Below, in pieces: positions 6,067 through 30,867 of a DNA stretch of 48,962 nucleotides. The position numbers and the translations under genes are program-made. Under the pieces are notes generated by a model that had not been told where the DNA came from, searched no databases, and saw only the letters and a list, made by a program, of their open reading frames with translations. The DNA is taken from NCBI GenBank assembly GCA_013697635.1, contig JACCWM010000086.1:1-48962 (forward strand), in the 5' to 3' direction. The stretch is from Lujinxingiaceae bacterium. Its GTDB lineage: Bacteria; Myxococcota_A; Bradymonadia; Bradymonadales; Bradymonadaceae. Numbering within the stretch: position 1 is the stretch's first letter; every line of letters starts with the position of its first letter.

Positions 6067-6074
6067 GCACTCTC

Positions 6075-7778
6075 CTAAATGCCAGGAACCAGGTCCTCAT
6101 CTGGCGTGCCGGCGTATTTGTCGCGGACAAAACCAAAGAGCGTCAAAACGATCGACGCCGCCGGAATCGCCAAAATCGCACCGACCAACCCGAAGGCACT
6201 CTGCCCTGCCAACAGCGCAAAAATTACGATCACCGGATGGATCAGGGCAGCTGTGCCGATGATCTTGGGGTTGAGAATGTTGGCTTCGACAAAGTTGATC
6301 ATCAATATCCAGCCCAACGCCAACATTCCCAGGGTAAAGCTTTGCGTCAATGCCATCGCCACGATCGGTATCGTCGACAAGACCGCACCGAAAATTGGAA
6401 TAATGGATAGAATGGCCGCGATCACTGCAAGTAGTACGCTATACTTTACGCCCAAGATGGCAAGACCGAAGTAGGTTAACACCCCGTTTACCACGCAAAT
6501 CATGAGCTGACCGCGCACCACCCCGCCCAGACGTATATCGAGCCTTCGCCCAATCTCGTCATAGCTCTCGCGATACTCACGCGGCACCACCTCACGGCAC
6601 AGCCGCTTGATGCGCGGCAGATCGATCGACATGAAGGCAGCAACCATCAGCGTGAGCGCGACGGCCAAGAAGACCTTGATCAAGCCGACCAGAAAACTCT
6701 GCGTGTACTCCACCAACGAGCTTATCCGAGCGCTCGAGATCGTCGTGATGCTCTCGACCACCTCATCGAAGCCGCGCTCGAGATCGAACATCGTGTGCAC
6801 GTTGAGATCGCTGGCCGCGGCTTCGAAAGCGAGCGCCTCGCTGCCCTCTCGGCGAAGCATCCAGACATCTTCATCGACAGCGGAGAACTCGACGCCTCGC
6901 TCACCCAGGAAAAAGGAGAAGCCCCCGTCGGCGTCGGGCACGATGCGAAAGGTCGGCGTCTCGGGCGAATCTTCGGTGGTCCAGACACCGTGGCGAACGA
7001 GTTGGTCGTCGGCTGGCACAGCGAGCAGTACATCGTTTGGCACGCGCCCGACATAGCGGCGCTGCAGATCGCCTGGCGATCCGACCAGATCCCATTGGAT
7101 CCTGACCTGCGAGGCAGCAGCCACGCGCGCCTGCGCGCTGGACATCGCCGCAGCCGCGCTGGCCGCCTGCTGGCGCGCGTGGCTGACCTGGGCCTTGACC
7201 ACGTCCAGATCGACCACCTCCGGGGCGAGCGTGACGTAGCTTCGCAGAAAGATCTGAAGGTCGCTATTGATGCCCGGCAAGCGCTCCTTTCGAAACTCCT
7301 GCACCACCTCCGGCGTCGTCTCCACGAAACGCGCGATCTCACCGACAAAACGTGGCACGATCAGCAGCAGCGAGGTGGCAACAATCGCCAAAAAGCTGAT
7401 GTAGACGAGCACCACGGCCATCCAGCGTGGCATGCGCCGCATGCCTTCGACCGGCATCGACATGCGGCTGACGATAGGCTCCATCAGGTAAACGATGATG
7501 CAGGCAAAGATAAACGGCAGCAGGACCGTTCGAAACGTCAGCAAAACCACGCTGAGCAGCGCAAGCGTGAGCAACGGCACGATAAAGCGCCGCGCCAGGA
7601 TGCGCGGAGCCGGCGCCGGCGGTGCCGCTTCAGCAGGTGGCGCGCTCACCTGGGCTTCAGACTGCGCCTCGCTGGCCCCGGCGTCGGGCTGGCCGGTGGC
7701 CCCATCGGCGCCCTTGGCGGGCGTAAGCGTCTCGTTCTCCTCGGACAAATCCGACTCTAACGATGCAGATTCACTCAT
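6075..7778 (-). CDS. AI-2E family membrane permease with large periplasmic insertion
   Basis: Member of the AI-2E/PerM transporter superfamily (YdiK, TqsA, PerM relatives), exporters of small molecules or ions in the inner membrane. The 567 residues exceed the usual 340-380. Residues 1-65 are an acidic Ala/Pro-rich cytosolic tail; three segments follow (FIVPLLTLALLSVVLLTF, VLLPFIFACIIVYLMEPI, WMAVVLVYISFLAIVATSLL). Residues about 185-330 are an inserted domain, with an Ala-rich helix and a strand-rich part ending GFSFFLGERGVEFSAVDED, that normal members lack. The C-terminal half is typical: MICVVNGVLTYFGLAILG, LSIIPIFGAVLSTIPIVAMA, NFVEANILNPKIIG (the conserved E.N...P signature) and a last helical pair. 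It sits between carA and the PP2C gene. Substrate unknown. Confidence 0.92.
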   Translation of the reverse strand: MSESASLESDLSEENETLTPAKGADGATGQPDAGASEAQSEAQVSAPPAEAAPPAPAPRILARRFIVPLLTLALLSVVLLTFRTVLLPFIFACIIVYLMEPIVSRMSMPVEGMRRMPRWMAVVLVYISFLAIVATSLLLIVPRFVGEIARFVETTPEVVQEFRKERLPGINSDLQIFLRSYVTLAPEVVDLDVVKAQVSHARQQAASAAAAMSSAQARVAAASQVRIQWDLVGSPGDLQRRYVGRVPNDVLLAVPADDQLVRHGVWTTEDSPETPTFRIVPDADGGFSFFLGERGVEFSAVDEDVWMLRREGSEALAFEAAASDLNVHTMFDLERGFDEVVESITTISSARISSLVEYTQSFLVGLIKVFLAVALTLMVAAFMSIDLPRIKRLCREVVPREYRESYDEIGRRLDIRLGGVVRGQLMICVVNGVLTYFGLAILGVKYSVLLAVIAAILSIIPIFGAVLSTIPIVAMALTQSFTLGMLALGWILMINFVEANILNPKIIGTAALIHPVIVIFALLAGQSAFGLVGAILAIPAASIVLTLFGFVRDKYAGTPDEDLVPGI

Positions 7779-7807
7779 GCGACTCAGGGGATCTAGAACG
7801 ATGGATT

Positions 7808-9016
7808 CTACAAATTGGCGCGTACCGCCGCAGCGAAATCGTCAAAACAGTCATCAGCGTCATGAGGCCCGGGTCCAGCCTCAGGGTGGTACTGAACCGC
7901 AAAAATCGGCAATGTTCGGTGGCGAAAGCCTTCAATCGTCTGGTCGTTGAGGTTGACGTGCGTGATCACCACGTCCTGCGAGAAGCTCGTCGGGTCCACG
8001 GCGTAGCCATGATTCTGGCTGGTCATGCACACGGTCTTTCGTGCCAGGTTCATCACCGGCTGGTTGGGACCGCGGTGGCCAAAGGGCAGCTTAAAGGTGC
8101 TCGCACCGTGGGCGCGCGCGAGCAGTTGGTGCCCAAGACAGATGCCCAGCGTGGGATGGCTCATGCTGGTCTGGCGGATGCTGGCCAGATGATGATCGAG
8201 CACGGCCGGATCACCGGGGCCGTTGGAGTAGAGCACGCCGTCGGGCTTAAGCGCGGCGATCTGCTCGGCGCCATAGCTTGCCGGCACGAGCGTCATGCGA
8301 AAACCACTGCGGTCCAGACAGCGCAGGATGCTCTGCTTGACACCAAAATCGACCACGACCACGTGCGGGCGCTCGGTGGCCACCGGCTCACTGCCAAGCG
8401 CCACGAGGCGAACCTCGGCGGCGCGAAGCCCCGTGGCCAACTGGGTCTCGCAAAGCGCGTCTTGTGAGACCACCACGCTCATCGGCTGCTCGCAGGCCAC
8501 GCGCGCGATCATGTCCTCGTTTCCATAATCGGGATAATCGCGCAGCTCGGCCACAATCGCCGCCACGTCCGCTGCACCGGCGCCGTGCACGATCGCGCCC
8601 ATCATCACGCCCTTGTCACGGATGTGGCGCGTCAAGGCGCGTGTGTCGACCTCACTTATCGCCACCGTGCCGTTGTCCTCGAGCCACTTTATAAAGCTTA
8701 TCTCGGAGCGGTAGTTGCTCGCCATGCGCGAGATGCTGCGCACGATCAGCCCCGAGGCCTGAATCGCCATCGACTCGCGATCGGCGCCGCTGACGCCGTA
8801 GTTGCCGATGTGAGGCATGGTGAAGGTGAGCAGCTGACCGCGGTAGGACGGATCGGTGAGGATCTCCTGGTAGCCGCTCATGCTGGTATTGAAGACCGCC
8901 TCACCGATGGTCTTTCCCGGGGCGCCGGCGGCGATCCCCTCGAAATGGCTGCCATCCTCGAGAACGAGGATAGCAGGCTGCTTTCGATCGTTGGAACGTG
9001 TTGAATCGACTACCAC
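7808..9016 (-). CDS. carA: Carbamoyl-phosphate synthase small (glutaminase) subunit
   Basis: Hydrolyses glutamine and passes ammonia to the large subunit CarB for carbamoyl phosphate, feeding pyrimidines and arginine. The 402 residues match the family: AILVLEDGSHFEGIAAG near the N terminus, NTSMSGYQEILTDPSYRGQ, then a class I glutamine amidotransferase domain with the nucleophile Cys in LGICLGHQLLARAHG, GHRGPNQPV, TSQNHGYAVD and the His-Glu pair in VQYHPEAGPGPHD. The start is GTG at 9016, preceded by GAGGAG at seven bases. It follows pyrB by only 10 nt, so two consecutive pyrimidine steps are co-expressed; carB is not in the window. No pyrimidine-type attenuator or PyrR site is recognisable. 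Confidence 0.98.
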   Translation of the reverse strand: MVVDSTRSNDRKQPAILVLEDGSHFEGIAAGAPGKTIGEAVFNTSMSGYQEILTDPSYRGQLLTFTMPHIGNYGVSGADRESMAIQASGLIVRSISRMASNYRSEISFIKWLEDNGTVAISEVDTRALTRHIRDKGVMMGAIVHGAGAADVAAIVAELRDYPDYGNEDMIARVACEQPMSVVVSQDALCETQLATGLRAAEVRLVALGSEPVATERPHVVVVDFGVKQSILRCLDRSGFRMTLVPASYGAEQIAALKPDGVLYSNGPGDPAVLDHHLASIRQTSMSHPTLGICLGHQLLARAHGASTFKLPFGHRGPNQPVMNLARKTVCMTSQNHGYAVDPTSFSQDVVITHVNLNDQTIEGFRHRTLPIFAVQYHPEAGPGPHDADDCFDDFAAAVRANL

Positions 9017-9026
9017 TTTCTACTCC

Positions 9027-9938
9027 TCAACGCACTAAAAGGCGCGCCAAAATGGCCTGGCGTATGGCCACACCGTTGGCGACCTGGTGAAGAATCAAAC
9101 TGCGTGGCCCATCGGCGATGGTGTCTTGGAGCTCGACGCCACGCATCACCGGGCCGGGATGCATGATCACGGCGTTGGGGGTCATGGCGCGCGCCACGAC
9201 CTCCTCGTCGATGCTCCAGTCACGGATGTAAGCATCGACCTCGACGACCTCGCCCACGAAGCGCTCACGCTGGATGCGCAAGACAATGACCGCGTCGGCC
9301 CCCTCGAGCGCCTCGTCGAGGTTGTAAACCCGGCGCTTCTCGCCCCAATTCTTGCCCGCGGGCAAGAGCATCGCCGGTCCGGCCAGCGTGACCTCGGCGC
9401 CAAGCTTGGTCAGGGCATAGGCGTCGCTGCGGGCCACACGGCTGTGCACGACATCACCGACGATCGAGACTTTCAGCCCCTGAAGCGAGCCAAAATGGCG
9501 GCGAAGCGTCAAGGCGTCGAGCATGCCCTGGGTGGGGTGCTCGCCGCTGCCATTGCCGGCGTTGATAATCGGCGTCTCGAGCTCCCTGGTCAACTGATGG
9601 GCGAGCTCACGCTGGTTATGGCGCACGATGAAGGCGCCCACGCCCATGGCCTCGAGGTTTCTGCAGGTGTCGAGCACGCTCTCGCCCTTCTCCAGGCTGG
9701 TGCCATCGGCGCTCAGATAGACCGAGCTGGCTCCCAGGCGCTGGGCAGCCAGCTCAAAACTCACCCGGGTGCGCGTGCTCGGTTCGAGAAAGAGCAGCGC
9801 CACGCTCACATCGGCCAGCGATTGGCGCCAGCGGCCAGGCGTGCAGACGCGACCACGTTCGTCGAGAAATTCCTCGGCAAAGTCGAGGTAGCCGCTCAAC
9901 TCGGTGGCGTTCATGTGCTCGAGCCCAATCAGGTGCAT
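9027..9938 (-). CDS. pyrB: Aspartate carbamoyltransferase catalytic chain
   Basis: Joins carbamoyl phosphate and aspartate to carbamoyl-aspartate, the committed step of pyrimidine synthesis. The 303 residues cover both domains of the trimeric catalytic chain: LFLEPSTRTRVSFELAAQRL with the carbamoyl phosphate-binding STRTR, SLEKGESVLDT, the GEHPTQGMLDALTL motif, IVGDVVHSRVARS and the MHPGPVMRG loop near the C terminus. AAAGG lies five bases before the ATG. Upstream is lepB (21 nt) and downstream carA (10 nt). No regulatory subunit PyrI is next to it, which fits the class of short PyrB that works without it or with a dihydroorotase partner; pyrC is not in this window. Confidence 0.98.
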   Translation of the reverse strand: MHLIGLEHMNATELSGYLDFAEEFLDERGRVCTPGRWRQSLADVSVALLFLEPSTRTRVSFELAAQRLGASSVYLSADGTSLEKGESVLDTCRNLEAMGVGAFIVRHNQRELAHQLTRELETPIINAGNGSGEHPTQGMLDALTLRRHFGSLQGLKVSIVGDVVHSRVARSDAYALTKLGAEVTLAGPAMLLPAGKNWGEKRRVYNLDEALEGADAVIVLRIQRERFVGEVVEVDAYIRDWSIDEEVVARAMTPNAVIMHPGPVMRGVELQDTIADGPRSLILHQVANGVAIRQAILARLLVR

Positions 9939-9959
9939 GAAACCTTTCGTCTTTCGTGT

Positions 9960-10912
9960 TCAGTGAATGAAACGACCGATCCGCTCCCAGCGCATCGAAT
10001 CAGGGCCGATCGACCACCAGATGATCATGGCTCGGCCCTTGATGTTCTCCACGGGCACCTGACCCCAACAGCGGCTGTCGGAGGACTTGTCGCGGTTGTC
10101 GCCCATCACGAAGAAGCGCCCCGGCTCGACCGTGATCGGCCCAAAGTTTACGTCGCTGCCCACGAACTGAATCGTGTAGGTAAAGCCGTTGAGCGTCTCG
10201 GACTCGTGCACTTCATGGGGGTAGAGAAAGTTGCCCGTGGCCTCTTTGCGCAAAAAGGTGCGCTCGGTGGCCTTGCCGTTGATGATCAGCTGATTGTCGC
10301 GCACCTCGACGGTGTCACCCTCGACGCCCACGATGCGCTTGATGAAATCCTTCTCGTTTTCCAGGCTGCCGCGATCGATGCAGTCGCGTTTGGAGGCAGG
10401 CTGCTGCGCGATGTGGGCGCGCGCCTGGGCGCTTGGAAAGCTAAAGACGACGACCTCGCCAGGCTTGGCCTCGCTGAACTCGAGCAAATACTTTTTGGTG
10501 AAGGGCACGCGCAGCCCGTAGACGAACTTGTTGACGAAGAGGTGGTCGCCCACGAGCAAGGTCGGGATCATCGAGCCGGTCGGGATCTTGAAGGCCTCGA
10601 TCACGAAGCCGCGCAGAATCAGAGCGCACAACACCGCAAGGCCGATGCTCTCAAAGTACTCGCGCCAGGCGCTCTTGGTGTTGGTGGGCAGGTGCTGGGC
10701 GACAAACACGCGCGCCTTCTCGAGGCGCGCCGCGGTGGCGGCGTCCTCTTCCTCGACCAGGTGGCGTAAATCGTTGAGGTGGGCCTGCATCTGCTGGCGC
10801 ACCTCGTCGCTCAGGCCCTTGGCCCGGTCGAGCTGCTCTTGCGTGGCCTTTATGAAGTCCTTGGCCTCGCTGAACACCGTGGTTTTTTGATGTGATTCAC
10901 TCACGTCTTGCC

Positions 10913-18377: not shown

Positions 18378-19913
18378 ATGAGCGACAAACCCGACGTCCA
18401 AGCCGAGATCGAGCGCCGCCTCGAGCAGATCAGCCGCGATCCCGAGGCCCTTCGCCGCTACGACATCAACGCCGACGGCATCATCGATGGCGTCGAGTGG
18501 GACGAGGTGCGCCGCGTCGTCACGGCCGAGGTGCACACCGCCTGGCAGCGCGAGCACACCCAACCGATGGCCGCGCTGACCCTGCAGGCGATCGGGCAGT
18601 CCGACCGGCCTGTGCTCGAGACGCTCAACGGCCGCTTTGATATCTACGCCGAGATCGGGCGCGGCGCGCAGGGCATCACCTCGCTTGGCCGTGACCGCAC
18701 GAGCGGGCGCCAGGTCGCCGTCAAGGAGCTCTTGCTCGATCGCGTCTCGAGTTGGAAAGGCGTCGAGCTCTTCGAGCGCGAGGGCCGCGCCCTGGCGAAC
18801 CTCGATCACCCCTGCATCCCGGCCTACGTCGACACCTTCCACATCGCCGATGCCAGCGGCCAGGAGCGCTTCTTTCTCGTCCAAGAGTTCGTCGAAGGCG
18901 ACAACTACGAAAAACTGCTCGCGGGCGGGCTGAGCATGACCGAGGCCGACGCGCGCGATTTTGCCGTGCAAACGCTCCACGTGCTCGACTATCTGCACGA
19001 GCGCAGCCCGCCCGTGGTGCACCGCGACATCAAGCCCTCGAACATGATTCGCCGCCCCGATGGCAGCATCGCGCTCATCGACTTTGGCGCCGTGCAGGCG
19101 ATCGTGCCCGACGCCTACGGCGGATCGACGATCGTGGGCACCAGCGGCTACATGCCCGTCGAGCAGCTCATGGGCCGCGCCGTGGCCGCCACCGACCTCT
19201 ACGCACTGGGCGCCACGCTCGCCCACCTGCTCAGCCATCGCCACCCGGCCGATCTGCCCGTCGAGTTCATGCGGCTGTCGTTTCGCCCCTTTGTCAACGT
19301 CTCCGAGCACTTTGCCAGCTTCCTCGACCGCATGCTCGAGCCTCACGTCGAGAAGCGCTTTCGCACGGCCAAAGAGGCGCTTCGCTACCTCGAGGGCCCA
19401 CCCGTCCAACTCGTCAGCCAGGTAAACCAGGACGAGCGCATTACTGCGGCCCTGATACAGGCCCGCGCAATCACCAAAGCTCGCCTCGAAGGACAGGGGC
19501 CGGCCCAGCAGCCGGCGGCCAAAACCTCGCCCGTTGCCAAAATCTCCACGGCCGCCGTGTTGGTCATGATCACCGTCGTTGTGTTGTTCTTCCCGATCGT
19601 TTCCAACAAGATTTTTGGCCACGACGAGCAGGTGCTCAACGTGCTGCGGGCCTGCCCGCTGGCCGAAGAGATGCTGGGCACCGATATCGGCAAGGCCGTC
19701 GGCTGTGCCTGGGGCGAGAGCAAGACCAACGGCAGCTCGGGCATCTCGCGATGGTCAATGCCGGTTTCTGGCACCAAGGCGCGCGGGCGCTACGACTTCT
19801 CCATGTCCAAGTCGCGGGGCAAGTGGACCGTGGATTTTGCGTCACTCAAAGCCGGCGATACCCAGATCAATGCCATCACCTGCGAGTACGTGGCATTCGA
19901 CGAGTACGATTAG
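18378..19913 (+). CDS. Membrane Ser/Thr protein kinase with EF-hand-like N terminus and Coa1-like sensor domain
   Basis: Eukaryote-like (Hanks) kinase of 511 residues. Residues about 25-50 carry one calcium-loop-like segment, RYDINADGIIDGVEWDEV. The kinase domain (about 85-340) has the Gly loop IGRGAQGITSLGRD, the ATP Lys in VAVKELLL, the catalytic loop VVHRDIKPSNMIRR, LIDFGAVQ and the GTSGYMPVEQLMG activation segment, so it looks active. A membrane helix follows at about 393-412 (AAVLVMITVVVLFFPIVSNK), and the C-terminal 95 residues outside the membrane resemble the Coa1/Tim21 fold (LAEEMLGTDIGKAVG, VSGTKARGRYDFSMSK, GKWTVDFASLKAG). The signal sensed is unknown. The gene has its own promoter and ends 17 nt from a convergent gene for a double cyclic-nucleotide-fold protein. 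Confidence 0.95.
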   Translation: MSDKPDVQAEIERRLEQISRDPEALRRYDINADGIIDGVEWDEVRRVVTAEVHTAWQREHTQPMAALTLQAIGQSDRPVLETLNGRFDIYAEIGRGAQGITSLGRDRTSGRQVAVKELLLDRVSSWKGVELFEREGRALANLDHPCIPAYVDTFHIADASGQERFFLVQEFVEGDNYEKLLAGGLSMTEADARDFAVQTLHVLDYLHERSPPVVHRDIKPSNMIRRPDGSIALIDFGAVQAIVPDAYGGSTIVGTSGYMPVEQLMGRAVAATDLYALGATLAHLLSHRHPADLPVEFMRLSFRPFVNVSEHFASFLDRMLEPHVEKRFRTAKEALRYLEGPPVQLVSQVNQDERITAALIQARAITKARLEGQGPAQQPAAKTSPVAKISTAAVLVMITVVVLFFPIVSNKIFGHDEQVLNVLRACPLAEEMLGTDIGKAVGCAWGESKTNGSSGISRWSMPVSGTKARGRYDFSMSKSRGKWTVDFASLKAGDTQINAITCEYVAFDEYD

Positions 19914-19930: not shown

Positions 19931-21841
19931 CTATTCCGGCTTGACCATGCTCGATGCGCCGTAGGGAGTCGTCCCGCGCGTGAACTGCGCGTTCATGTTT
20001 CGAAGCTCACGCACGACCTTGTCGACCTCTCGGGCCACCGAATCGTGCTGGCGCAGGGCCTTTCGAAACTCGTCCGCCGGCAGGCGAAGCACGACCGTGT
20101 CGACCTGAGCGCGCACCGTTGCTGTTGATGGCGAATTGGTGGCCGTTGGCGTCACGCCAAAGAAGTCACCCTCACACAGCGAATCCAACTGCTCGGCGCG
20201 CTCTTGGCTGGCGGGCTGCTTGAAGAGCACCTCGCCGATGACGATCAGGTACACACCCGCAGAGCTTTGGCCCTGGTCCAAGATGATCTGGCCGGCCAGC
20301 ACCTCCTCGAGCACGAAGCGCGAGGCCAGCGCCTCGCGCTCGCCGAGCGTGAGGCGATTGAACATGCGGCTCGAGGCCAGCAGATTGTTGAGCATGCGCG
20401 CATAGTAGAAGTTCCAAAGCGCGTCCCAGACCTCGGGATGGGTTGCGGCAAGCTCGAAGAGCACTTCGTCGCGGATCTCGAGCAGCTCGACGTCGCTCTC
20501 GGCGACGACCTGGGCCAGACCATCGCGGCCGGTGAGCAGGCGAAACTCTCCGAAAAACTCCCCTTCGGCCAAAAGCGCCAGCGGCACGGTGCGCCCATCA
20601 CTCAAGTTCTTCTCCACGCGCACTCGCCCCTTGATAATCACAAACAGGCTGGCCGAGTCGTCGTTGGGATTGGTGATCACCGCCTGTGCCGGCACGCGAC
20701 GAATGTCGATGACCTTGAGCAGCTTCATAAAGGCGTTGGCGTTGAGTTGGCTGAAGAGCGGAATCTCGGGCAGCTTGGCGCGCGTCACGCTCAAGATCGC
20801 CGGATGCGTCCCGCTGCTCAGATCGGCCACCGAGAGCTCGGTGGAGTCGGGCTCGTCGATCTCGTCATAAAACGACATCGACTTCCACTTCTCGTTGGAG
20901 CTCTCATCGAGCCCCAGACTGTCGATATCGAACACGCCCAGCTCAAAGGTGTGCTCCTGATCGTAAAAATCAGCCGGCATCACAGGCGAACTCAGCATGA
21001 CCGTTGCATCCTCAGGCTGCGCTTCGCCCTGCCACTCGTCGAGGATGTCCTCGACGCCAATGTCCACCGTGGCACGAAGCTCGCTGGTCGCCTGAACAGC
21101 CTTTGAATCACGCCGTATCGACGGCAACGCGGGCATCGTCAACATCTCCTGGCGCGAGACGACCCCGTCTCCCTCGGCAAGCGCTGGCAGCCTCGGCGAG
21201 GTGCTCTCCTCGACCTCGTCAGCGCCGTCATCGTCTTCATCCTCGTCGATGGTGAACGTGATCAAGTCGCTGCGTTCGGTCTCGGCAGGCATCATCATGT
21301 CGGAGAACTCATCGAGCCCGGCCACGACCGTGGCAGCCTGCGCGCTCGTTGCAGCCACGCTCGGGTGGCGAGCGACCGTCTTGGGCTGATTGAGCGTGAT
21401 CGCGCGCCCGGTTCCATCCTCGATGTCGGCCAGATCGCGCACCGACATGGCTTGCACGCGAAGCGTGCTCACGTCGAGCACGGCCGCCGCCGACGGGCTC
21501 GACGCTCGTCCGGCAGTGCCATCATCGAGCGGGCGCGCCACCCGCACCGCGTCGCCGCTGATCTCGGGTACCTGGGCGTAGAGCCTGGCCAAGAAGAATT
21601 GGGTTTCGGTGTGCGTGGGCTCGAGCTCGAGGATTGCCTTGCATGCCGCCAACGCTTCGAGCGGAAGCCCCTGGCTGGCCAGCAGCTTGGCCGCCGTCAC
21701 GTACTCGTCGACCGCGTGTGAGATGCGGCCCATCTCACGAAAAATGGCCGCAAGCCGAAGCCGGGCCTCGATATTGCCCGGATCTTCCTTGAGCGTCTTC
21801 TGGTAGTAAACCAGGTATTTTTTAATTTTTTGAGACGCCAT
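19931..21841 (-). CDS. TPR protein with two cyclic nucleotide-binding-type domains
   Basis: A 636-residue cytosolic protein. Residues about 5-100 form TPR-like helices (KYLVYYQKTLKEDPGNIEAR, RISHAVDEYVTAAKLLASQ, LEALAACKAILELEPTHTET). An acidic linker rich in Asp/Glu/Ser (about 110-340) follows, then two cyclic-nucleotide-binding folds: about 355-470 (LFVIIKGRVRVEKNL, ALLAEGEFFGEFRLLTGRD) and about 480-605 (ILDQGQSSAGVYLIVIGEVL, SLCEGDFFGVTPTATN). Neither binding cassette keeps the consensus Arg, as in many scaffolding or regulatory homologues of Myxococcota relatives. There is no DNA-binding or catalytic domain, so it may act as a protein-interaction hub for the phosphorylation network. It lies convergent to the kinase, 17 nt apart. 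The ligand is unknown. Confidence 0.88.
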   Translation of the reverse strand: MASQKIKKYLVYYQKTLKEDPGNIEARLRLAAIFREMGRISHAVDEYVTAAKLLASQGLPLEALAACKAILELEPTHTETQFFLARLYAQVPEISGDAVRVARPLDDGTAGRASSPSAAAVLDVSTLRVQAMSVRDLADIEDGTGRAITLNQPKTVARHPSVAATSAQAATVVAGLDEFSDMMMPAETERSDLITFTIDEDEDDDGADEVEESTSPRLPALAEGDGVVSRQEMLTMPALPSIRRDSKAVQATSELRATVDIGVEDILDEWQGEAQPEDATVMLSSPVMPADFYDQEHTFELGVFDIDSLGLDESSNEKWKSMSFYDEIDEPDSTELSVADLSSGTHPAILSVTRAKLPEIPLFSQLNANAFMKLLKVIDIRRVPAQAVITNPNDDSASLFVIIKGRVRVEKNLSDGRTVPLALLAEGEFFGEFRLLTGRDGLAQVVAESDVELLEIRDEVLFELAATHPEVWDALWNFYYARMLNNLLASSRMFNRLTLGEREALASRFVLEEVLAGQIILDQGQSSAGVYLIVIGEVLFKQPASQERAEQLDSLCEGDFFGVTPTATNSPSTATVRAQVDTVVLRLPADEFRKALRQHDSVAREVDKVVRELRNMNAQFTRGTTPYGASSMVKPE

Positions 21842-22904: not shown

Positions 22905-23897
22905 TCACTCAACGTCGGCCGCGATCGCCGCATTCCGCGCGCGCTCCCGGGGCCCGAGCGCCACACGCTCGCCAGGGCTGGGCTGTGCGTCATCTACCTG
23001 GTTGTCGAAATCGTCCCACTGATCGTCGCGCACCGAGTACTGTCGTACATAAGGCGCGTAGATCTTGTGCTCGCGAAAGGCGCGGCGCACCTGCTGGGTG
23101 ACGTCGGAGTCGAAGGCCATCTCATAGCGGGCATCGATCACATAGGCCCGACACACGATCACGGTGGCAAACACGGGCTGAAGAAACTTCTCATGAACCC
23201 CGGTGACCACCGGCTTCTTCAAAAAGACGAACTTCGAGGTGATGCACGCCTCGTAGACGATGCGCCGGGCCAACTCGAAGTCGGCCGACATCGCGATATG
23301 AAAGCGCAGCACGACCATCATGTCGAGCGCGCCGGCGTTGGACGAGGACACCGCCTCGGTCAAGAACTTGTTGTTCGGGATCGAGACCTCGCTGTCATCG
23401 AGGGTGACGATGCGCACCGAGCGCAGCCCGATCTCTTTGACCTCGCCATAGATGTCTTGAAACTGCACCCGGTCACCGACCTGAAATGGCTGGTCGATCA
23501 GGATCAAAATGCCTGCCATCAAACTCGAGGCCGTATCCTTGAGCGCAAAGCCTATCGCGACAGCTAGCGTTCCACCCAGACCGATCAAGGCCGCGCGGTC
23601 CTCCTGAAAGTCCAAGAAGGTGGCCAGCACCATGTAGGAGGCGATCATGAAGATGCCCAGCCGGGTAAAGCTCTGCACCTTCTTGAACATCAACCGGCGC
23701 TTGGCCTGTCCCTCGCCGATGCGATCGAGCGCGGCGCTGGCCAGCCGATTGGCCATGAAGGCCACGAACACGATGATCAAGGCAGCAAATATCTTGCCAA
23801 AATCGATGCCCTCGAAGCGCTCGGCAAGCTCGCTGACATCCGGCGCCGCCTGGGCCAGGATGGAGACCGGAAACTGTATGAAACCTACGTTTGCCAC
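22905..23897 (-). CDS. MscS-family mechanosensitive channel
   Basis: Small-conductance mechanosensitive channel-type protein, 330 residues, GTG start at 23897 with GAGGG five bases upstream. Four membrane segments: about 30-50 (FGKIFAALIIVFVAFMA), 70-90, 97-115 and the pore helix at about 110-125 (GGTLAVAIGFALKDTASSLMAG), followed by the cytosolic beta domain signature FQVGDRVQFQDIYGEVKEIGLRSVRIVTLDDSEVSIPNNKFL, here shortened to fragments for reading, and a C-terminal alpha/beta vestibule. It probably releases osmolytes on hypo-osmotic shock. It starts 24 nt after the stop of the 1.1-kilo-residue ATPase-membrane protein gene, so the two are very likely co-transcribed and may work together. 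Confidence 0.96.
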   Translation of the reverse strand: MANVGFIQFPVSILAQAAPDVSELAERFEGIDFGKIFAALIIVFVAFMANRLASAALDRIGEGQAKRRLMFKKVQSFTRLGIFMIASYMVLATFLDFQEDRAALIGLGGTLAVAIGFALKDTASSLMAGILILIDQPFQVGDRVQFQDIYGEVKEIGLRSVRIVTLDDSEVSIPNNKFLTEAVSSSNAGALDMMVVLRFHIAMSADFELARRIVYEACITSKFVFLKKPVVTGVHEKFLQPVFATVIVCRAYVIDARYEMAFDSDVTQQVRRAFREHKIYAPYVRQYSVRDDQWDDFDNQVDDAQPSPGERVALGPRERARNAAIAADVE

Positions 23898-23921
23898 AAA
23901 AGCCCTCGCTCGAGCTGGATG

Positions 23922-26900
23922 CTATTCGTAGAGAAAGTTCGAGTCGCCCAAATGTTTGATCACGGAGCGAAAATACAGCGGAGTCAGGCTCACGCGCTGG
24001 GTGCGCCGATCAAGGCTGACGATGTCGTTGTCGATGAAGTAATCCAAGATCATCTCGCAAAACCCCGGCTCCAGGCGAATGATCTCAGCGATCTCGTCGG
24101 CGCGCAGACAGCCATGTTGCGCGATCGCTGCCAGGGCAAACCAGTAGTCGCGCGAGACATTGACCAGCACGGCCTGCGAGGGCCGATGAAACAGACTGAC
24201 CTGCAGATGATTTCGCGCCCTGTCGTGCTTGAGGCTGCGAAGCCAGAAGGTCAGCGCCACGCGCGGATTACCCTTACAAAATTCGTGGAGCAGGCGAAAA
24301 TAGCCATTGCTCGTCTTGACGACCTCGTACTGATGATTGTCGGTCTCGTGGGTGACCACCAAATCGTCGAAGCTAATTGGCAGGTCAATGAGCGCGTCGC
24401 GCGCATTGATCAACTGTTGAATCTCAGCCTCGCTCCAGCTAACAACCGGGATCACCGACCCAAAATAGTGCTGGCGGCTGCGCACTCGGTTCAAATACGA
24501 CCAGGCAAAGGAGTTGAACGAGAGCACCCAGAAGTGGCGCGAATCGCACAGGTTGACCACGTCCAAGAACAAATCGACGGCATCGAAGCCGCCAATCTGG
24601 CGCATGAACAGATGATGGCAATCGTCAACCAGCACAGTGCGCGCGGGCTGAGCGCGCAGCGCCGCGACGAGCTCGCTCTTGTTGGCCGGCGTCTTGTCCA
24701 GGTCGAACAAGCTCGTCAACAACTTGATGACGTCGGCGGCGGATTTGAACTTCTCACAAAGCTGCAGATAGACAACTTCGTGCTCGGAGCTGTCGACCCA
24801 TCGCGTGTAGGTCTGGTTGAGCAAGGTCGTCTTGCCCATGCCCGCCTCGCCGGTGAGCGCCACCGAACCGCGCCGCTTGCTCGCTCGCCAGGAGGTCACG
24901 GCCGCCTCGACCGCATCGTTGAGCGCCGCTCGCTCGACGTGAAAGCGCTCGTCGGTCAACGGATGGTCCACAAAATATGCGCAGTAGTCCTCGGGAATCG
25001 GTGAGTGGCCAACGGCCGAGGTCTCTTCCTCGCGCTCGCGGCGTTGCAGCTCGATCTTCTTTCGAAAGATGAAGTTGCTGGCCTGTCGGCTCCAGGCCGT
25101 GTCGACAAACCAGGCCCGGGCAACGCGCGCGATCTCGCGACCGGCAACATAGACCGACGCCACCGCAATCAGCAGCACGCCGTAAGGTCGGTCCTTGTGG
25201 GTGTTGATGACCGCAACCGCGCGGGGCATTCGCTCGCGCGCCAGCTTGCCAAAGACGTGGGCAATGTCGTCTTTCCAGGCGCTCAGTACCAGATAGAAAA
25301 CGGCCAGAAAACCCAGCATGAACACCAGATCGATGGTCCACCAGATCACCGAGTGACCCATCAGGCCAACGACGGCCGTGGGCACGTACCTGGCCAACAT
25401 GCCGAAGATCAGCACAAAGCGCACGCTGAGCACGAGCTTCTGCGCGCGCGAGATCTCGAGCTTGACCACGTCGACCATCTCGTCGAGCGAGCGCGAGTCG
25501 CTCGACAGGCTGGACAAATCCGGCGACGGACTCAGCCCGGAACGCTCCCGATAACCGCGCGGCAGCACCAGCACCTTGAGCACGGTCATCGTCACGAAGT
25601 AGAAGAACATCACGTCGATCACCCAGCGCCCTACGCGCACCTCAGGCAACATCAGCGCGACGTAATCGACCACTACGATGACCGCGATGTAGATCAGCAA
25701 CGGCCGAAGCAGCGCGCGCAATATCTCGGCAAACTTGATCGTGGCGCCCGCTCGCTGGCGAAAGGTGTGCTTCTTGAGCAAATAATCGGTGAGTCGGCGC
25801 ACCATCTGCGGGCCGTACTCTCGGCCCAGATAGAAGGACAACGGAAAAAGCAGCAAGCGCATCGCCAGGCCGACCACCCAACCCCAAAAGGCAATCGAAA
25901 ACAGCTTCTCCGGAAGGCTCAACGCCTGCTCGACGCGCTCGCGCCCGGCGACCAGGAATCGCTCCACTGCGTCGCGCACGCTGTCCACCGCGTCGTGCCA
26001 GCTCTCATCGCGCAGCGGACTGAAAAAACGCGAGCGCCGCTCGCTGCTCGTCTGGAAGACGATACGCTCCAAGGCGGTGTGGAAAAACGTCGACCGCTCC
26101 ACATCCAGGCTGTAATGCTGCTCGAGTGCCGCGGCGAAGTCGCCCGCGATCTGCAGCTTTCGCTCCTCGAGCTGAACGCGAAGATCGGCCAGCGCGACCT
26201 GGCGGCGAGCAAGCTCGGTTTCATTGAGCGTCGAGAGCTCGCTCTGGGCGCGGGCCTGCTCCGCTGTGGCCAAGCTCAGCGCTTGCTCGACGCTGGCCAG
26301 TTGTCGCCTGGCCCCGTCGAAGGCATGGCGAGCAGCGCGTCGCTCCACACGCGCCGTGCGCCGAAGGCTCAAGAGCTCGTCAAAAAGTGGATCGGCGCGC
26401 TCACGCGCGATCGAATCGCTGGGAGTATCGGGCAGCGCGTCGATCCGATCGTTGAGCACGGCGCGCCGCTCGGCAAACACCTCGGCGCGCTCGCGGCGTT
26501 TGTCGCCCACACGGCGCAACTGGTCGGCCTCCTCGCGCGTGAGCGCGACGAGCTGCTCGGCCAACTCGCGCTCGCGCACGAGGATCGCGCGAATCTGTTG
26601 GTTTTGCTCGCGCGTCTCACGAGCACGCGCGTCTTCGAGGGTCTGCAGGGCCGCCTTCTCAGCCAGCTCGGCCTTCTCGACACGGCGCTGACTGTCACCG
26701 TCGATGACATGAACTGCAGCGAGCGCCTCGCGCTGAAGCCCGAGTTTCTCAGCGAGGCCGCGCGCGCGCGCCTCGCCCGATTTTGCTGCCTCACTGCGGC
26801 CTACCACCACCGCACGCTGAAAAACGTGGCTGACAAGCTCGGCGCCGATGATCGTGCGCGCCACGTCGCTCAAGTCTTCGTTGCCAAGCTGGCGCGTGAA

Positions 26901-27257
26901 GATACGCTCGAGGTGCAACAGATTCTCGCGCTCCTGAGCAATCACCGCCTGCAGCGCGAAGAGCTCCTCGGCCGCGCGCAGCGCCTCAGCGCGCAGTTTC
27001 TCAATGCCCTCGATGCTCTCGAGAGCGGCCGGATCAATGGCGTAATCGACCAGCAGCACCTCGGTGAGCGCGCGCTCGTCGGGCGCCGCCTCCGCTGCAG
27101 GGTCGTTGAGTCCAAGCTCGGACTCGACGGCGCCAATCGCCTGGTCTAAAAGGTCAGCTTCGCGCGCTGGCGTCTGAGCCTGGAGGCTGGCCGCACAGAA
27201 TACGCAGATGAGAAAATTCGCGCATGCCGCCCAAATCAGTCGTTCGAACTTTCGCAT
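23922..27257 (-). CDS. Periplasmic coiled coil-membrane-AAA ATPase fusion protein
   Basis: About 1111 residues, not recognised as a named family. ATG at 27257 gives a good Sec signal (LIWAACANFLICVFCAASLQA); GTG at 27266 adds three residues. Residues about 100-400 are Arg/Glu/Ala-rich, strongly coiled coil-like and periplasmic, as in MscK/KefA-type proteins. Membrane segments lie at about 455-480, 517-537, 545-567, 612-636, 638-662 and 690-707. The cytosolic C terminus (about 760-1110) is a P-loop ATPase: Walker A GEAGMGKTTLLNQ near 805, Walker B RTVLVDDCHHLFMR near 875, a sensor-like WVLSFNSFAWSYL, then a lid (GNPRVALTFWLRSL) and a winged-helix-like end. The ATPase resembles Orc/ExeA/TniB-type AAA proteins. 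The MscS gene follows after 24 nt. It may couple ATP use to a channel; function is unproven. Confidence 0.9.
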   Translation of the reverse strand: MRKFERLIWAACANFLICVFCAASLQAQTPAREADLLDQAIGAVESELGLNDPAAEAAPDERALTEVLLVDYAIDPAALESIEGIEKLRAEALRAAEELFALQAVIAQERENLLHLERIFTRQLGNEDLSDVARTIIGAELVSHVFQRAVVVGRSEAAKSGEARARGLAEKLGLQREALAAVHVIDGDSQRRVEKAELAEKAALQTLEDARARETREQNQQIRAILVRERELAEQLVALTREEADQLRRVGDKRRERAEVFAERRAVLNDRIDALPDTPSDSIARERADPLFDELLSLRRTARVERRAARHAFDGARRQLASVEQALSLATAEQARAQSELSTLNETELARRQVALADLRVQLEERKLQIAGDFAAALEQHYSLDVERSTFFHTALERIVFQTSSERRSRFFSPLRDESWHDAVDSVRDAVERFLVAGRERVEQALSLPEKLFSIAFWGWVVGLAMRLLLFPLSFYLGREYGPQMVRRLTDYLLKKHTFRQRAGATIKFAEILRALLRPLLIYIAVIVVVDYVALMLPEVRVGRWVIDVMFFYFVTMTVLKVLVLPRGYRERSGLSPSPDLSSLSSDSRSLDEMVDVVKLEISRAQKLVLSVRFVLIFGMLARYVPTAVVGLMGHSVIWWTIDLVFMLGFLAVFYLVLSAWKDDIAHVFGKLARERMPRAVAVINTHKDRPYGVLLIAVASVYVAGREIARVARAWFVDTAWSRQASNFIFRKKIELQRREREEETSAVGHSPIPEDYCAYFVDHPLTDERFHVERAALNDAVEAAVTSWRASKRRGSVALTGEAGMGKTTLLNQTYTRWVDSSEHEVVYLQLCEKFKSAADVIKLLTSLFDLDKTPANKSELVAALRAQPARTVLVDDCHHLFMRQIGGFDAVDLFLDVVNLCDSRHFWVLSFNSFAWSYLNRVRSRQHYFGSVIPVVSWSEAEIQQLINARDALIDLPISFDDLVVTHETDNHQYEVVKTSNGYFRLLHEFCKGNPRVALTFWLRSLKHDRARNHLQVSLFHRPSQAVLVNVSRDYWFALAAIAQHGCLRADEIAEIIRLEPGFCEMILDYFIDNDIVSLDRRTQRVSLTPLYFRSVIKHLGDSNFLYE

Positions 27258-27396
27258 CCACTTCACTTCTTTCTACGGCCAGCAGCGTCAGGACCAAGAT
27301 CGCTGTTGGCCGAAACACGGATTTGGGAGTAAGGTTACACCGCTCACAGGTTACCTCAAAGCCCGGTGTCGTCCAAAGTTTCCGCGCAGCAGGTCC

Positions 27397-28485
27397 ATGA
27401 CGCCTCAAAAAGCTCAACAAACACTTTCAAAAACAAGCGCACATCCCGTCTACCGCTCGCTGATCGGTGCTCTGGGCCTGTGTACCCTTGTGTTCGGCCT
27501 GCTCGCCTGCAGCGCGGGGCGTCCGGTCCAGCGCTGGAACGAGGACTTTTTGCAAGCCGCGCGCTTGCAGGACCAACGCCAATTCGACGAGGCCGAGCAA
27601 CACTACGTTGCGCTTCGCGCCCGCGCCACCACCGACGGCCAGCGCCGCCAGATCGATTTTGAGCTCGCCAACATTACCCTTCGCCGTGGCGACAAAGATG
27701 GGGCGCTTGCCGCCTACAAGGCGATTTGGGATTCGCCCGTCAAGGACAGCGTGGGAGGTCGCGCCCTGCATGAGAGCGCGCGCATCGTTGCCGAGAAAGA
27801 CCTCGAGCGCGCCCTGCTCCTTCACCGCACGGTCATCACCGAGTACCCTGAACACGTCGCCGCAGACTTCTCGCTGAGCGTGCTTCGAATCCATTATGGC
27901 CGCACCAAAGAACATCATGTGCTGCTTGAACTTCTCGACGCACTCTACGCCGTCGTTGCGCCATCGAGCATCGCAAATCACATTTTGTTCACCCGCGCCG
28001 TGCTGCTCGAGACCGAGCTTCGCGACGAAGATGGTGCGCTCGAGACCTACACGCGCCTCTACCGGGGCTGCGATGGTTGCTCGCTCGGCGATGAGGCGCT
28101 CTGGCAGATGGCCCAGATCTATGTGCGCCGCCAGCATTGGCAACCGGCCATCACGATCCTCGAAGCCCTCGCGGCGCGGGTGGAGACGAGCTGGTTCGTT
28201 GGCACTTACAATTCGCCGCGCGCCGGCGATTCGCGCTACCAGCTTGGCATGATCTGCATGCTTCATCGCAACGACTACGACCGCGCAAGCGAGCACTTCG
28301 AGCTTTACATCAAGACCTTTCCCCACAATGTCGAGACCGACGACGCGGCCTGGCATCTCGTCCAAATTGAGCGCTTGCGCGGCCAGACAAACGCCTACCA
28401 GCAGGGCCTGCTCGCATTCGAGAAGCACTATCCCGACAGCCGTCACGTCGCCACAGCCCGCGCCCGCCTTGGAAGCCGTCCATGA
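27397..28485 (+). CDS. TPR-repeat lipoprotein
   Basis: A 362-residue lipoprotein: signal LGLCTLVFGLLACS after MTPQKAQQTL..., ATG chosen at 27397 because an AGG lies just upstream and the longer frame from 27208 overlaps the divergent gene and has no signal. From residue about 45 to the end the protein is a solenoid of TPR-like units: QFDEAEQHYVALRARATT, DGALAAYKAIWDSP, ERALLLHRTVITEYPEHVAA, DGALETYTRLYRGC, WQPAITILEALAARV, DRASEHFELYIKTFPHNVET. It ends in ATGA shared with the ATPase gene, so it belongs to the MlaFEE operon. It could be the outer-membrane or periplasmic partner of the lipid transporter, a role BamD-like proteins show for other machines; this is inference. Confidence 0.9.
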   Translation: MTPQKAQQTLSKTSAHPVYRSLIGALGLCTLVFGLLACSAGRPVQRWNEDFLQAARLQDQRQFDEAEQHYVALRARATTDGQRRQIDFELANITLRRGDKDGALAAYKAIWDSPVKDSVGGRALHESARIVAEKDLERALLLHRTVITEYPEHVAADFSLSVLRIHYGRTKEHHVLLELLDALYAVVAPSSIANHILFTRAVLLETELRDEDGALETYTRLYRGCDGCSLGDEALWQMAQIYVRRQHWQPAITILEALAARVETSWFVGTYNSPRAGDSRYQLGMICMLHRNDYDRASEHFELYIKTFPHNVETDDAAWHLVQIERLRGQTNAYQQGLLAFEKHYPDSRHVATARARLGSRP

Positions 28486-29225
28486 TCGTCGTCGACAACA
28501 TCAGCAAGAGCCACCTCGGGCGCCCCGTGCTCGAGAATGTGAGCATCGAGATCCCGGAGGGCACCAACCTGGGACTGATCGGCCCGGGCGGCGCCGGCAA
28601 GACGCTCTTGCTCAAGATCATCTGTGGTCTGGTCAAGCCTGACTCGGGCAAGGTGACCATCGGCGGCATCGACGTGCACAAGCTCGGCGCCACACAGCTG
28701 GCCGATTTGCGCTTTCGCATTGGCATGCTGTTTCAAAACTACGCGCTTTTTGACTTCATGAACGTCGCTGACAACATCGCCTTTCCGCTTCGCCAAGAGG
28801 GCACGCTCGGCGAGCTTGAGATCGCCGAGCGCGTCAAAAAGGCGCTGCATGACATCAGCCTATCGACCATCGGCAACCGTTTTCCCAACGAGCTCTCCGG
28901 CGGCATGAAGAAGCGCGTCAGTTTTGCGCGTGCCGTGATCCGCCAGCCGCCGATCCTCTTTTACGACGATCCCACGGCCGGCCTCGATCCGGTGATCAGC
29001 TCCAAGATCTTCATCTTGCTGCGCACCATGCAACAAGAGCGCGGCACCACGGCCGTGACGATCAGCCACGATATCGGGGGCATCAAGGAGATTTGCGACT
29101 TCTTTGCGATGATCGACCGAGGACAAATAATCTTCCACGGCAACCGCGACGCCATCGAACGTTGCGAGATTCCCCTCGTAATGCAATTCTGGCGCGGATT
29201 TAGCGATGATGACCTCGACGGCTGA
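28482..29225 (+). CDS. MlaF-like ABC transporter ATPase (lipid transport)
   Basis: ATP-binding subunit of an MCE/Mla-type phospholipid or lipid transporter, 247 residues. Motifs: Walker A GLIGPGGAGKTLLLKIICGL, Q-loop GMLFQNYALFDFMNV, signature LSGGMKKRVSFARA, Walker B ILFYDDPTAGLDPV, H-loop VTISHDIGG. The residue after the Walker B Asp, normally the catalytic Glu of D-E-P, is Asp (D-D-P). That is unusual and would be expected to slow hydrolysis unless it is compensated, though it is a conservative change. The FDFMNVADNIAFPL segment is typical of MlaF/Mkl. ATGA overlap with the lipoprotein upstream, GGAAG seven bases before the start, and two permeases follow. Confidence 0.95.
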   Translation: MIVVDNISKSHLGRPVLENVSIEIPEGTNLGLIGPGGAGKTLLLKIICGLVKPDSGKVTIGGIDVHKLGATQLADLRFRIGMLFQNYALFDFMNVADNIAFPLRQEGTLGELEIAERVKKALHDISLSTIGNRFPNELSGGMKKRVSFARAVIRQPPILFYDDPTAGLDPVISSKIFILLRTMQQERGTTAVTISHDIGGIKEICDFFAMIDRGQIIFHGNRDAIERCEIPLVMQFWRGFSDDDLDG

Positions 29226-29235
29226 CGATTAAGCG

Positions 29236-30033
29236 ATGCAAAGCATAGCCGCAAAATTAATACGCCCACTGCACGGGGTGGGCCAGAGCTTCAACTACTG
29301 GGCGTTTCAGATCGGTGGTTTGTGCATCTTGATGGCCCGGATCATGGTCAACATGCTGCCCTGGCGCTGGCAGTTCGACGGCCCAGAGACCTGGCGAAAC
29401 CTCTACCGCGTCGGCGTCAAGAGCTTCCCGATCGTTGCGGTCACCGCGCTCTTGACCGGCGCGATCATGGTGATCCAGAGCGGCTTGTACATCGAGCAAT
29501 ACGGCGCCTACGGCCTGCTCGGCTGGGGGGCGGGCTACACGATCTTGCGAGAGATTGGCCCGATCATGATCGGGCTGATGTTCTCCGGGCGCGTGGGCGC
29601 AAACAACACCGCCGAGCTCGGCACGATGAAGGTCACCGACCAGATCGACGCGCTGCGCGCGCTGGCGATCGACCCGATTGGTTATCTGGTCATGCCGCGC
29701 TTTTTGGCCATGATCATCATGATGTTCTTGCTCGTCGTCGTCGGCAACTTCACCGCCCTCGTGGGCGGCGCGATCACCAGCCAGTTGCTGCTCGGCGTCA
29801 ACATGAAGCTCTTCGCCTGGAGCGTGATCACCTACGTCTTTCTCGATGACTTGTTCCACGGCCTGATCAAGGCCGTCGCCTTTGGTTTTGCGATCGCTAT
29901 CATTTCTTGCCACTTCGGACTGAACACGCAGGGCGGCGCGGTCGGCGTCGGGCGCGCGGTCAACGCCAGCGTCGTCGGCAGCGCCATCGCGATCTTTGTG
30001 CTCGATTACATCATCACTTTTGCCTCGATGTAG
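29236..30033 (+). CDS. MlaE-like ABC transporter permease 1
   Basis: Inner-membrane permease of the MlaE/YrbE family (265 residues). Family pattern: an N-terminal amphipathic helix (LIRPLHGVGQSFNYWAFQ), five or so membrane segments at about residues 25-45, 65-85, 100-120 (GWGAGYTILREIGPIMIGLM), 150-185 and 230-260, and the central EIGPIMIGLMFSGRVGANNTAELGTMKVTDQIDALRAL region shortened here, with its invariant E, RVG and AE..TM features. It lies 10 nt behind the ATPase gene. Two different MlaE genes in a row point to a heterodimeric membrane core rather than the usual homodimer. Confidence 0.95.
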   Translation: MQSIAAKLIRPLHGVGQSFNYWAFQIGGLCILMARIMVNMLPWRWQFDGPETWRNLYRVGVKSFPIVAVTALLTGAIMVIQSGLYIEQYGAYGLLGWGAGYTILREIGPIMIGLMFSGRVGANNTAELGTMKVTDQIDALRALAIDPIGYLVMPRFLAMIIMMFLLVVVGNFTALVGGAITSQLLLGVNMKLFAWSVITYVFLDDLFHGLIKAVAFGFAIAIISCHFGLNTQGGAVGVGRAVNASVVGSAIAIFVLDYIITFASM

Positions 30034-30036
30034 CCC

Positions 30037-30867
30037 ATGTCTGCAGAACCACACATCGAACAACCCCAGACCACGAGCGCTGCCCACAACTTGCTCGCAA
30101 GCGTGGGCGAGCCGATCTTGATGATCGCGCGCACCGTGCGTGAGATCTTCGAGATGTTCTCGCTCACGCTCTACTACGTGGTGCGCGGGCGAAAGCGTTG
30201 GCCGGCGATCTTCGAGCAGATGTACGACGTGGGCAACCGCTCGATCCTCTTCATCGCCGTAACGCTGGGCTTTTTGGGCATGATCCTGATCTTTCAGGCC
30301 GGCAACCAGGCTCTCCAGATCACCGGCGATCTTCAGGTGCTCGGCGGCCTCTTCCTTCAGCTCTTGCTGCGCGAGTTCGCCCCGACGATCGCCGCCATGA
30401 TGATCGCCACCCGCGTGGCCACCGGCATGGCCGCCCAGATTGGCTCGATGGTCGTCACCGAGCAGGTCGACGCCCTCCAGATGTGCGCCGCCCAACCCGT
30501 CGACTATCTCGTCGTTCCCCGCTTCATTGCCTGCACCATCATGATGGTGATCCTCACGATCTTCGCCGTGCTCGTGGCTTATGTCTGCGGCGCCTTCACC
30601 GCCTACATGGCCTTCAACCTTAATCCGCGCACCTTCATCGATCTGGGCTTCATCACCTGGTTCGACCCGATCATCGGCCTCGTCAAAGCCTTCGCCTACG
30701 GCATGGCGATCCCGATCATCGCCTGCCACGCCGGCCTCAACGTCTTCGGCGGCAGCGAAGGCGTCGGCCGCGCCACCACCCAGGCCGTCGTCAACGCCAG
30801 CCTCGCCGTGGTCATCCTCGACTTCATCATCTCCGGCCTCGGCTACGTCGTGCTCGGCCTGCTCTGA
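30037..30867 (+). CDS. MlaE-like ABC transporter permease 2
   Basis: Second MlaE/YrbE-family permease (276 residues), 3 nt after the first. Family features: LLLREFAPTIAAMMIATRVA, TGMAAQIGSMVVTEQVDALQ, a long membrane helix MMVILTIFAVLVAYVCGAFT, and the C-terminal ACHAGLNVFGGSEGVG (paired in permease 1 by SCHFGLNTQGGAVGVG), so the two are clearly paralogues. It is shifted by a 25-residue hydrophilic N terminus (MSAEPHIEQPQTTSAA...). No mlaD, mlaC or mlaA is found in the window; the stop is 19 nt from the convergent murD stop, with no terminator between them. Confidence 0.95.
   Translation: MSAEPHIEQPQTTSAAHNLLASVGEPILMIARTVREIFEMFSLTLYYVVRGRKRWPAIFEQMYDVGNRSILFIAVTLGFLGMILIFQAGNQALQITGDLQVLGGLFLQLLLREFAPTIAAMMIATRVATGMAAQIGSMVVTEQVDALQMCAAQPVDYLVVPRFIACTIMMVILTIFAVLVAYVCGAFTAYMAFNLNPRTFIDLGFITWFDPIIGLVKAFAYGMAIPIIACHAGLNVFGGSEGVGRATTQAVVNASLAVVILDFIISGLGYVVLGLL

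Follow-up and report, generated by a model that had tools for sequence, protein, structure and literature searches.

A P-loop ATPase domain and a dedicated MscS-family channel encoded as a nearly obligatory gene pair

Introduction

Can an MscS-family channel be under the control of a nucleotide-binding partner? MscS channels are taught as valves that are opened by membrane tension alone. The question is raised by a locus in the genome of a Lujinxingiaceae bacterium (assembly GCA_013697635.1, contig JACCWM010000086.1), where, within the window (the whole 48,962-nt stretch of DNA that was analyzed), a gene for a long protein ending in a P-loop ATPase is followed by a gene for an MscS-type pore. 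The original prediction was that the pair would be an "ATP-gated" or "ATP-assembled" channel; either term may apply. It also named two findings that would count against it: homologs of the ATPase that are never next to MscS, and a frameshift that joins two unrelated genes.

Results

The ATPase protein is encoded by a single intact frame

The ATPase gene (P0001) occupies positions 23922–27257 of the minus strand, as do all features of the pair, and encodes 1111 amino acids (aa) from an ATG at 27257; the open reading frame (ORF) extends to 27266, where an alternative in-frame GTG would yield 1114 aa. The chain begins with a signal peptide or N-terminal hydrophobic segment (aa 1–28; 27174–27257; hydropathy peak at aa 7–25, mean 2.18). 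Next comes a region rich in Ala, Arg, Glu, and Leu, extending to about residue 445, which composition and AlphaFold helices predict to be periplasmic, helical, and coiled-coil-like (aa 30–445; 25923–27170). The AlphaFold model of the full-length protein, built at low depth (two sequences), had a pLDDT of 45 and usable confidence for the coil only, where it contained three long helices (189–273, 282–343, and 348–402; pLDDT about 60–90). As the ATPase domain modeled alone reached a pLDDT of 37, the structure prediction originally proposed as a check was informative for the coil and not for the ATPase.

The coil is followed by a membrane region (aa 452–712; 25122–25904), which had been read as about six helices. 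Hydropathy identifies five clear segments (about 452–475, 519–537, 542–560, 615–633, and 642–660) and a weaker sixth (694–712). If all six segments behind the periplasmic coil crossed the membrane fully, the ATPase would end up outside the cell, so segment 694–712 probably does not cross fully and is probably interfacial or re-entrant.

The P-loop ATPase domain (AAA_22/NACHT/nSTAND-like; aa 761–1040; 24138–24977) was delimited by Pfam and by a family profile. Pfam matches include AAA_22 (E = 2.6e-9 at aa 795–903; 37.9 bits against a cut-off of 27), NACHT (E = 1.9e-6; 28.2 bits, above the cut-off of 26.7), and nSTAND5 (E = 2.5e-6). Both motifs quoted in the original prediction are present: the Walker A motif GEAGMGKTT (aa 803–811; 24825–24851) and the stretch VLVDDCHHLF (aa 875–884), whose first five residues form the Walker B motif (VLVDD, aa 875–879; 24621–24635), with DD in place of the DE of most AAA+ proteins. 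Conservation revealed a GNP motif (aa 996–998; 24264–24272) that corresponds to the GxP of STAND NTPases or the sensor-2 region. The C-terminal end, previously called winged-helix-like, is indeed a winged-helix domain by profile comparison (aa 1036–1111; 23925–24152), with MarR-type matches in some family members and a match between positions 270–330 of the ATPase family profile and the MarR-family structure 1s3j. A histidine in this domain, H1048, was considered as an equivalent of the MHD-like histidine of NLRs and rejected: it is invariant in 30 sequences, but conserved at <80% in a larger set.

Relatives of the gene are found in 33 of the 58 genomes sampled around that of the window; one partial relative is a Bradymonadaceae MAG (L032). 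The closest homologs are collinear over nearly the full chain, at 33–45% identity and with zero internal stops, which rules out a frameshift fusion of two genes. Thus a Sec signal, a long helical stretch predicted to be periplasmic, a membrane region, and a cytosolic P-loop ATPase do lie in one chain, next to a gene for a separate MscS pore.

The neighboring gene encodes an MscS-family channel

The MscS gene (P0002; 22905–23897) begins with GTG and encodes 330 aa. Its predicted product is a member of the MscS channel superfamily, judged by the MscS beta domain PF00924 (aa 121–183; 23349–23537; E = 7e-21) and the preceding TM2/TM3, with the predicted pore helix TM3 just ahead of the beta domain (about aa 102–133). 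Among solved structures, the MscS family profile finds those of MscS, MscK, and YnaI (for example, 3t9n at 5e-23). The interval between the ATPase stop and the MscS start is 24 nt, as originally stated (23898–23921). Read directly, it is CATCCAGCTCGAGCGAGGGCTTTT, with a GAGGG, the likely ribosome-binding site of MscS, shortly upstream of the GTG. The two genes form an operon-like unit.

The ATPase and its MscS are rarely found apart

We gathered homologs of the ATPase by ATPase similarity alone from relatives, 379 genomes of the phylum, and plasmids. The ATPase domain was matched at E<=1e-8 in 128 of the 379 phylum genomes; a late match, L157 (E = 3e-8), was left out of the set as a different ATPase. 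A same-strand MscS gene lies downstream of the ATPase domain in 95 of 98 loci, the opposite of homologs that never adjoin MscS. In 93 of the 98, the MscS domain starts at most 240 nt past the ATPase stop, and several of the gene pairs overlap by a few bases. Wider spacing occurs at L065 (2.2 kb) and L145 (3.5 kb). No MscS gene is seen at three loci, two of which are cut by contig ends; the true exception, L070, encodes a group B ATPase (described below) at 5214–9773, with no MscS within the 5 kb fetched.

For the reverse search, we ran a profile of the partner MscS against the same 379 genomes, taking matches of at least 200 bits as members of the clade. This yielded 110 MscS genes, 107 of them directly behind an ATPase gene. 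The other three are a tandem copy, a gene 3.5 kb away from its ATPase, and a gene at a contig end (G160), where the cut locus still shows the C terminus of the ATPase beside the MscS. Altogether, the ATPase domain and the partner-type MscS co-occur in well over a hundred genomes. Chance adjacency is negligible, because the window's genome holds just eight MscS-family genes. Pairing is therefore near-obligatory in both directions, and the genome-wide search originally proposed as a check finds the pair in relatives.

Some loci carry additional MscS genes behind the pair. Those at L106 (7676–8734) and L146 (6860–7801 and 9488–10354) belong to other MscS clades, and that at L040 (9514–10605) is a tandem copy of the same clade. 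At L112 (3530–4496), the partner MscS is split across two frames by a frameshift mutation or an assembly error.

The front of the ATPase protein is exchangeable

Three architectures have the ATPase domain and the MscS neighbor in common. Group A, the form in the window, consists of a signal peptide, coil, membrane helices, and ATPase. In group B, the ATPase follows a Na_H_Exchanger domain (PF00999, up to 3e-24) and a long helical stretch, and a diverged MscS comes next. The window's genome contains a second, paralogous operon of this kind on contig C39 (L062, 4692–10028), in which the antiporter-fused ATPase (4692–9245; 1517 aa) is directly followed by the diverged MscS (9258–10028). The third form is soluble. 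Within the phylum, it consists of a 415-aa ATPase and an MscS in G098 (L172), where the upstream gene encodes an unrelated P450; on a plasmid of the haloarchaeon Salinirubellus (L109), a 331-aa ATPase gene overlaps its MscS gene by 4 nt. Outside the phylum, the pair's known occurrence comes from four plasmid records, with group A pairs on alphaproteobacterial plasmids of Caulobacter and Novosphingobium. A search of viral contigs yielded no relative.

The layout first described, coil–membrane–ATPase beside MscS, thus exists, but its coil and membrane part is not essential, as soluble and antiporter-fused ATPases also adjoin MscS. The only parts invariant across architectures are the ATPase domain and the MscS. 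With these two alone constant, the simplest reading is an action of the ATPase domain on MscS.

The paired channels form a dedicated clade that evolves in parallel with the ATPase

In a tree of MscS proteins, the channels paired with group A ATPases form a cluster distinct from the unpaired MscS that those genomes also encode. Paired and unpaired labels change four times on this tree, compared to a mean of 26.7 when labels are shuffled, and the "unpaired" entries inside the partner cluster are the tandem copy and one piece of a partner gene that is split. For group A, distances in the ATPase and MscS trees are correlated (Mantel r = 0.77, 79 pairs; none of 2000 permutations reached a value as high), a correlation of which shared descent alone would account for some. 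Two genomes, G365 and G212, each carry two distant paralogous pairs. There, cognate combinations gave r = 0.69–0.91, and swapped combinations gave −0.09 to 0.29; the test had no power in five further genomes, where the paralogs are closer. We conclude that the two proteins evolve in parallel.

Conserved adjacency can also stem from co-expression or assembly. Two proteins that serve osmotic or ion stress could share an operon and never touch, and the 2–3.5 kb that separate the genes at L065 and L145 are what such an arrangement would allow. However, the pairing outlives the replacement of the ATPase's whole N-terminal part, spans bacteria and archaea, and employs a specific MscS clade rather than any MscS. 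We consider co-expression without contact quite improbable.

Conservation of the nucleotide site favors a switch over an obligatory motor

Among group A proteins, 71 of 79 retain the Walker A lysine, as do 8 of 14 in group B; it is replaced by Arg in the archaeal member (L109) and by Met in L172. The second Walker B acid is Asp in 49 of 79 group A members, as in STAND NTPases, and the GxP motif of this group is highly conserved (Gly 100%, Pro 96%). As some members have lost the lysine, nucleotide dependence would not be universal, and the pattern favors a nucleotide-binding switch, lost in some lineages, over an obligatory motor; the same losses speak against obligatory hydrolysis.

These losses also bear on whether the ATPase might be an assembly or placement factor resembling ExeA/GspA, one that stands outside the gating channel and uses ATP to insert it or to tether it through the cell wall. 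Weak matches of the ExeA/TniB kind (AAA_22; TIGR03015, E = 3.5e-4; TniB, 0.0045) and the long periplasmic rod are consistent with this idea. Yet several members lack the lysine expected of a hydrolyzing assembly motor, the archaeal and L172 members keep the pair with no membrane or periplasmic part, and, to our knowledge, other MscS channels require no such factor. An assembly role is therefore unlikely.

On balance, we think it probable that the MscS-family pore and a dedicated nucleotide-binding control subunit make up one membrane machine. From the sequence patterns, we infer a physical complex, gating by nucleotide, and a role in osmotic or ion homeostasis. The AAA/STAND-like domain and its winged helix, both cytosolic, would probably dock on the MscS heptamer from the cytosolic side, and the domain's nucleotide state would probably shift the channel's opening threshold. 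The exchangeable N-terminal module could be an input or an anchor: a periplasmic rod with membrane helices, a Na+/H+-antiporter domain, or nothing.

Relationship to known channels and NTPases

Like this pair, MscK (KefA) and MscM of E. coli combine an MscS pore with a signal peptide, a long periplasmic helical region, and extra membrane helices. In MscK and MscM, however, all parts lie in one chain that contains no ATPase, whereas here the pore is encoded by a separate gene 24 nt away and the coil–membrane chain ends in an ATPase. The original prediction had likened the coil to MscK/KefA; kinship of the coil or membrane part is not supported. P0001 shows no Pfam match to MscS_porin (PF12795) or MscS_TM (PF12794), neither of which is among the 25 families most often matched by 21 members (E<=0.5), and a PF12795 search of the window's own genome gave no match at the ATPase gene. 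Alignment of the coil and membrane part to E. coli MscK with hhalign also gave no match, in a weak test that used one single-sequence template.

Some MscS-superfamily channels carry regulatory domains; in the cyclic-nucleotide-binding bCNG channels, for example, a fused domain binds a small messenger. The likeness is an MscS pore controlled by a cytosolic ligand-binding domain; the difference is that here the domain is a separate AAA/STAND protein. KtrAB/TrkAH potassium channels combine a membrane pore with a cytosolic nucleotide-binding subunit, using RCK domains and a K+ channel fold. These are the nearest analogs by function, with a P-loop AAA/STAND domain and an MscS pore in the present case.

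As in Orc/Cdc6, the ATPase is predicted to have a P-loop core of the AAA type ahead of its winged helix, and the family profile has weak matches to TnsC and Cdc6. It differs from ExeA/GspA, TniB/TnsC, and Orc/Cdc6 in its other fused domains, its Walker B motif (mostly DD, not DE), and its fixed link to MscS. The periplasmic peptidoglycan-binding domain that follows the ATPase in ExeA/GspA has no Pfam match in P0001, and the domain order is reversed. With STAND NTPases (NACHT, NB-ARC, and nSTAND), the protein shares Walker A, an hhhhDD Walker B, GxP, and the winged helix. Unlike these proteins, it has no C-terminal sensor repeats, as the chain stops at the winged helix, and its partner is a channel gene.

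In agreement with the original prediction, a search of open-access full text turned up no account of MscS paired with an AAA/STAND ATPase. The layout is apparently undescribed, in the sense of "not found" rather than "proven" new. That one MscS clade is hardly ever encountered without a P-loop NTPase of its own suggests nucleotide control of part of the superfamily, and the pair offers a simple two-gene system that includes a minimal version, a soluble ATPase with a 269-aa channel. It also suggests a function for many genes whose current annotation is "AAA family ATPase" or "hypothetical protein." We propose, tentatively, that the pairs may represent a channel class spanning bacteria and archaea, in which an obligatory AAA/STAND NTPase subunit with swappable front modules (rod, cation antiporter, or none) would unite ATP state, ion exchange, and tension.

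The pair occupies a stable chromosomal site

Genes for an ABC ATPase of the MlaF type and for two MlaE permeases lie next to the pair, in divergent orientation, in several genomes from the window's family. The same MlaF-MlaE-MlaE neighbors are found at L052, in another family of the class, and ribosomal protein L3 lies on the pair's other side in the window, L036–L038, and L052. The pair's place is a stable chromosomal site, unlike a defense island.

This location is relevant to a conflict or suicide module, in which a STAND-like protein would sense an invader and open the MscS pore, killing or stalling the cell. Such a role would fit the NACHT/nSTAND similarity and the plasmid-borne copies. 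However, PADLOC profiles gave no match to the pair better than E = 0.033, the pair has a fixed location next to MlaF-MlaE-MlaE, in some genomes with L3 as well, that extends to another family of the class, the ATPase and MscS gene trees run parallel, and the sensor repeats expected after the winged helix are missing. A defense function is thus very unlikely.

On the plus strand of the window, 27208–30867 encodes a TPR protein, an ABC ATPase, and, in adjacent genes, the two MlaE permeases (PF02405, 2.5e-70 and 3.6e-59); this block is divergent from the pair and is retained next to it in several genomes, L052 among them. Near L3, a minus-strand gene (19931–21841) encodes a protein of 636 aa that has TPR repeats plus two domains for cyclic-nucleotide binding and is kept close by in L036–L038. 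The plus-strand gene at 18378–19913 encodes a Ser/Thr protein kinase whose C-terminal part has a Coa1-like match (1e-5).
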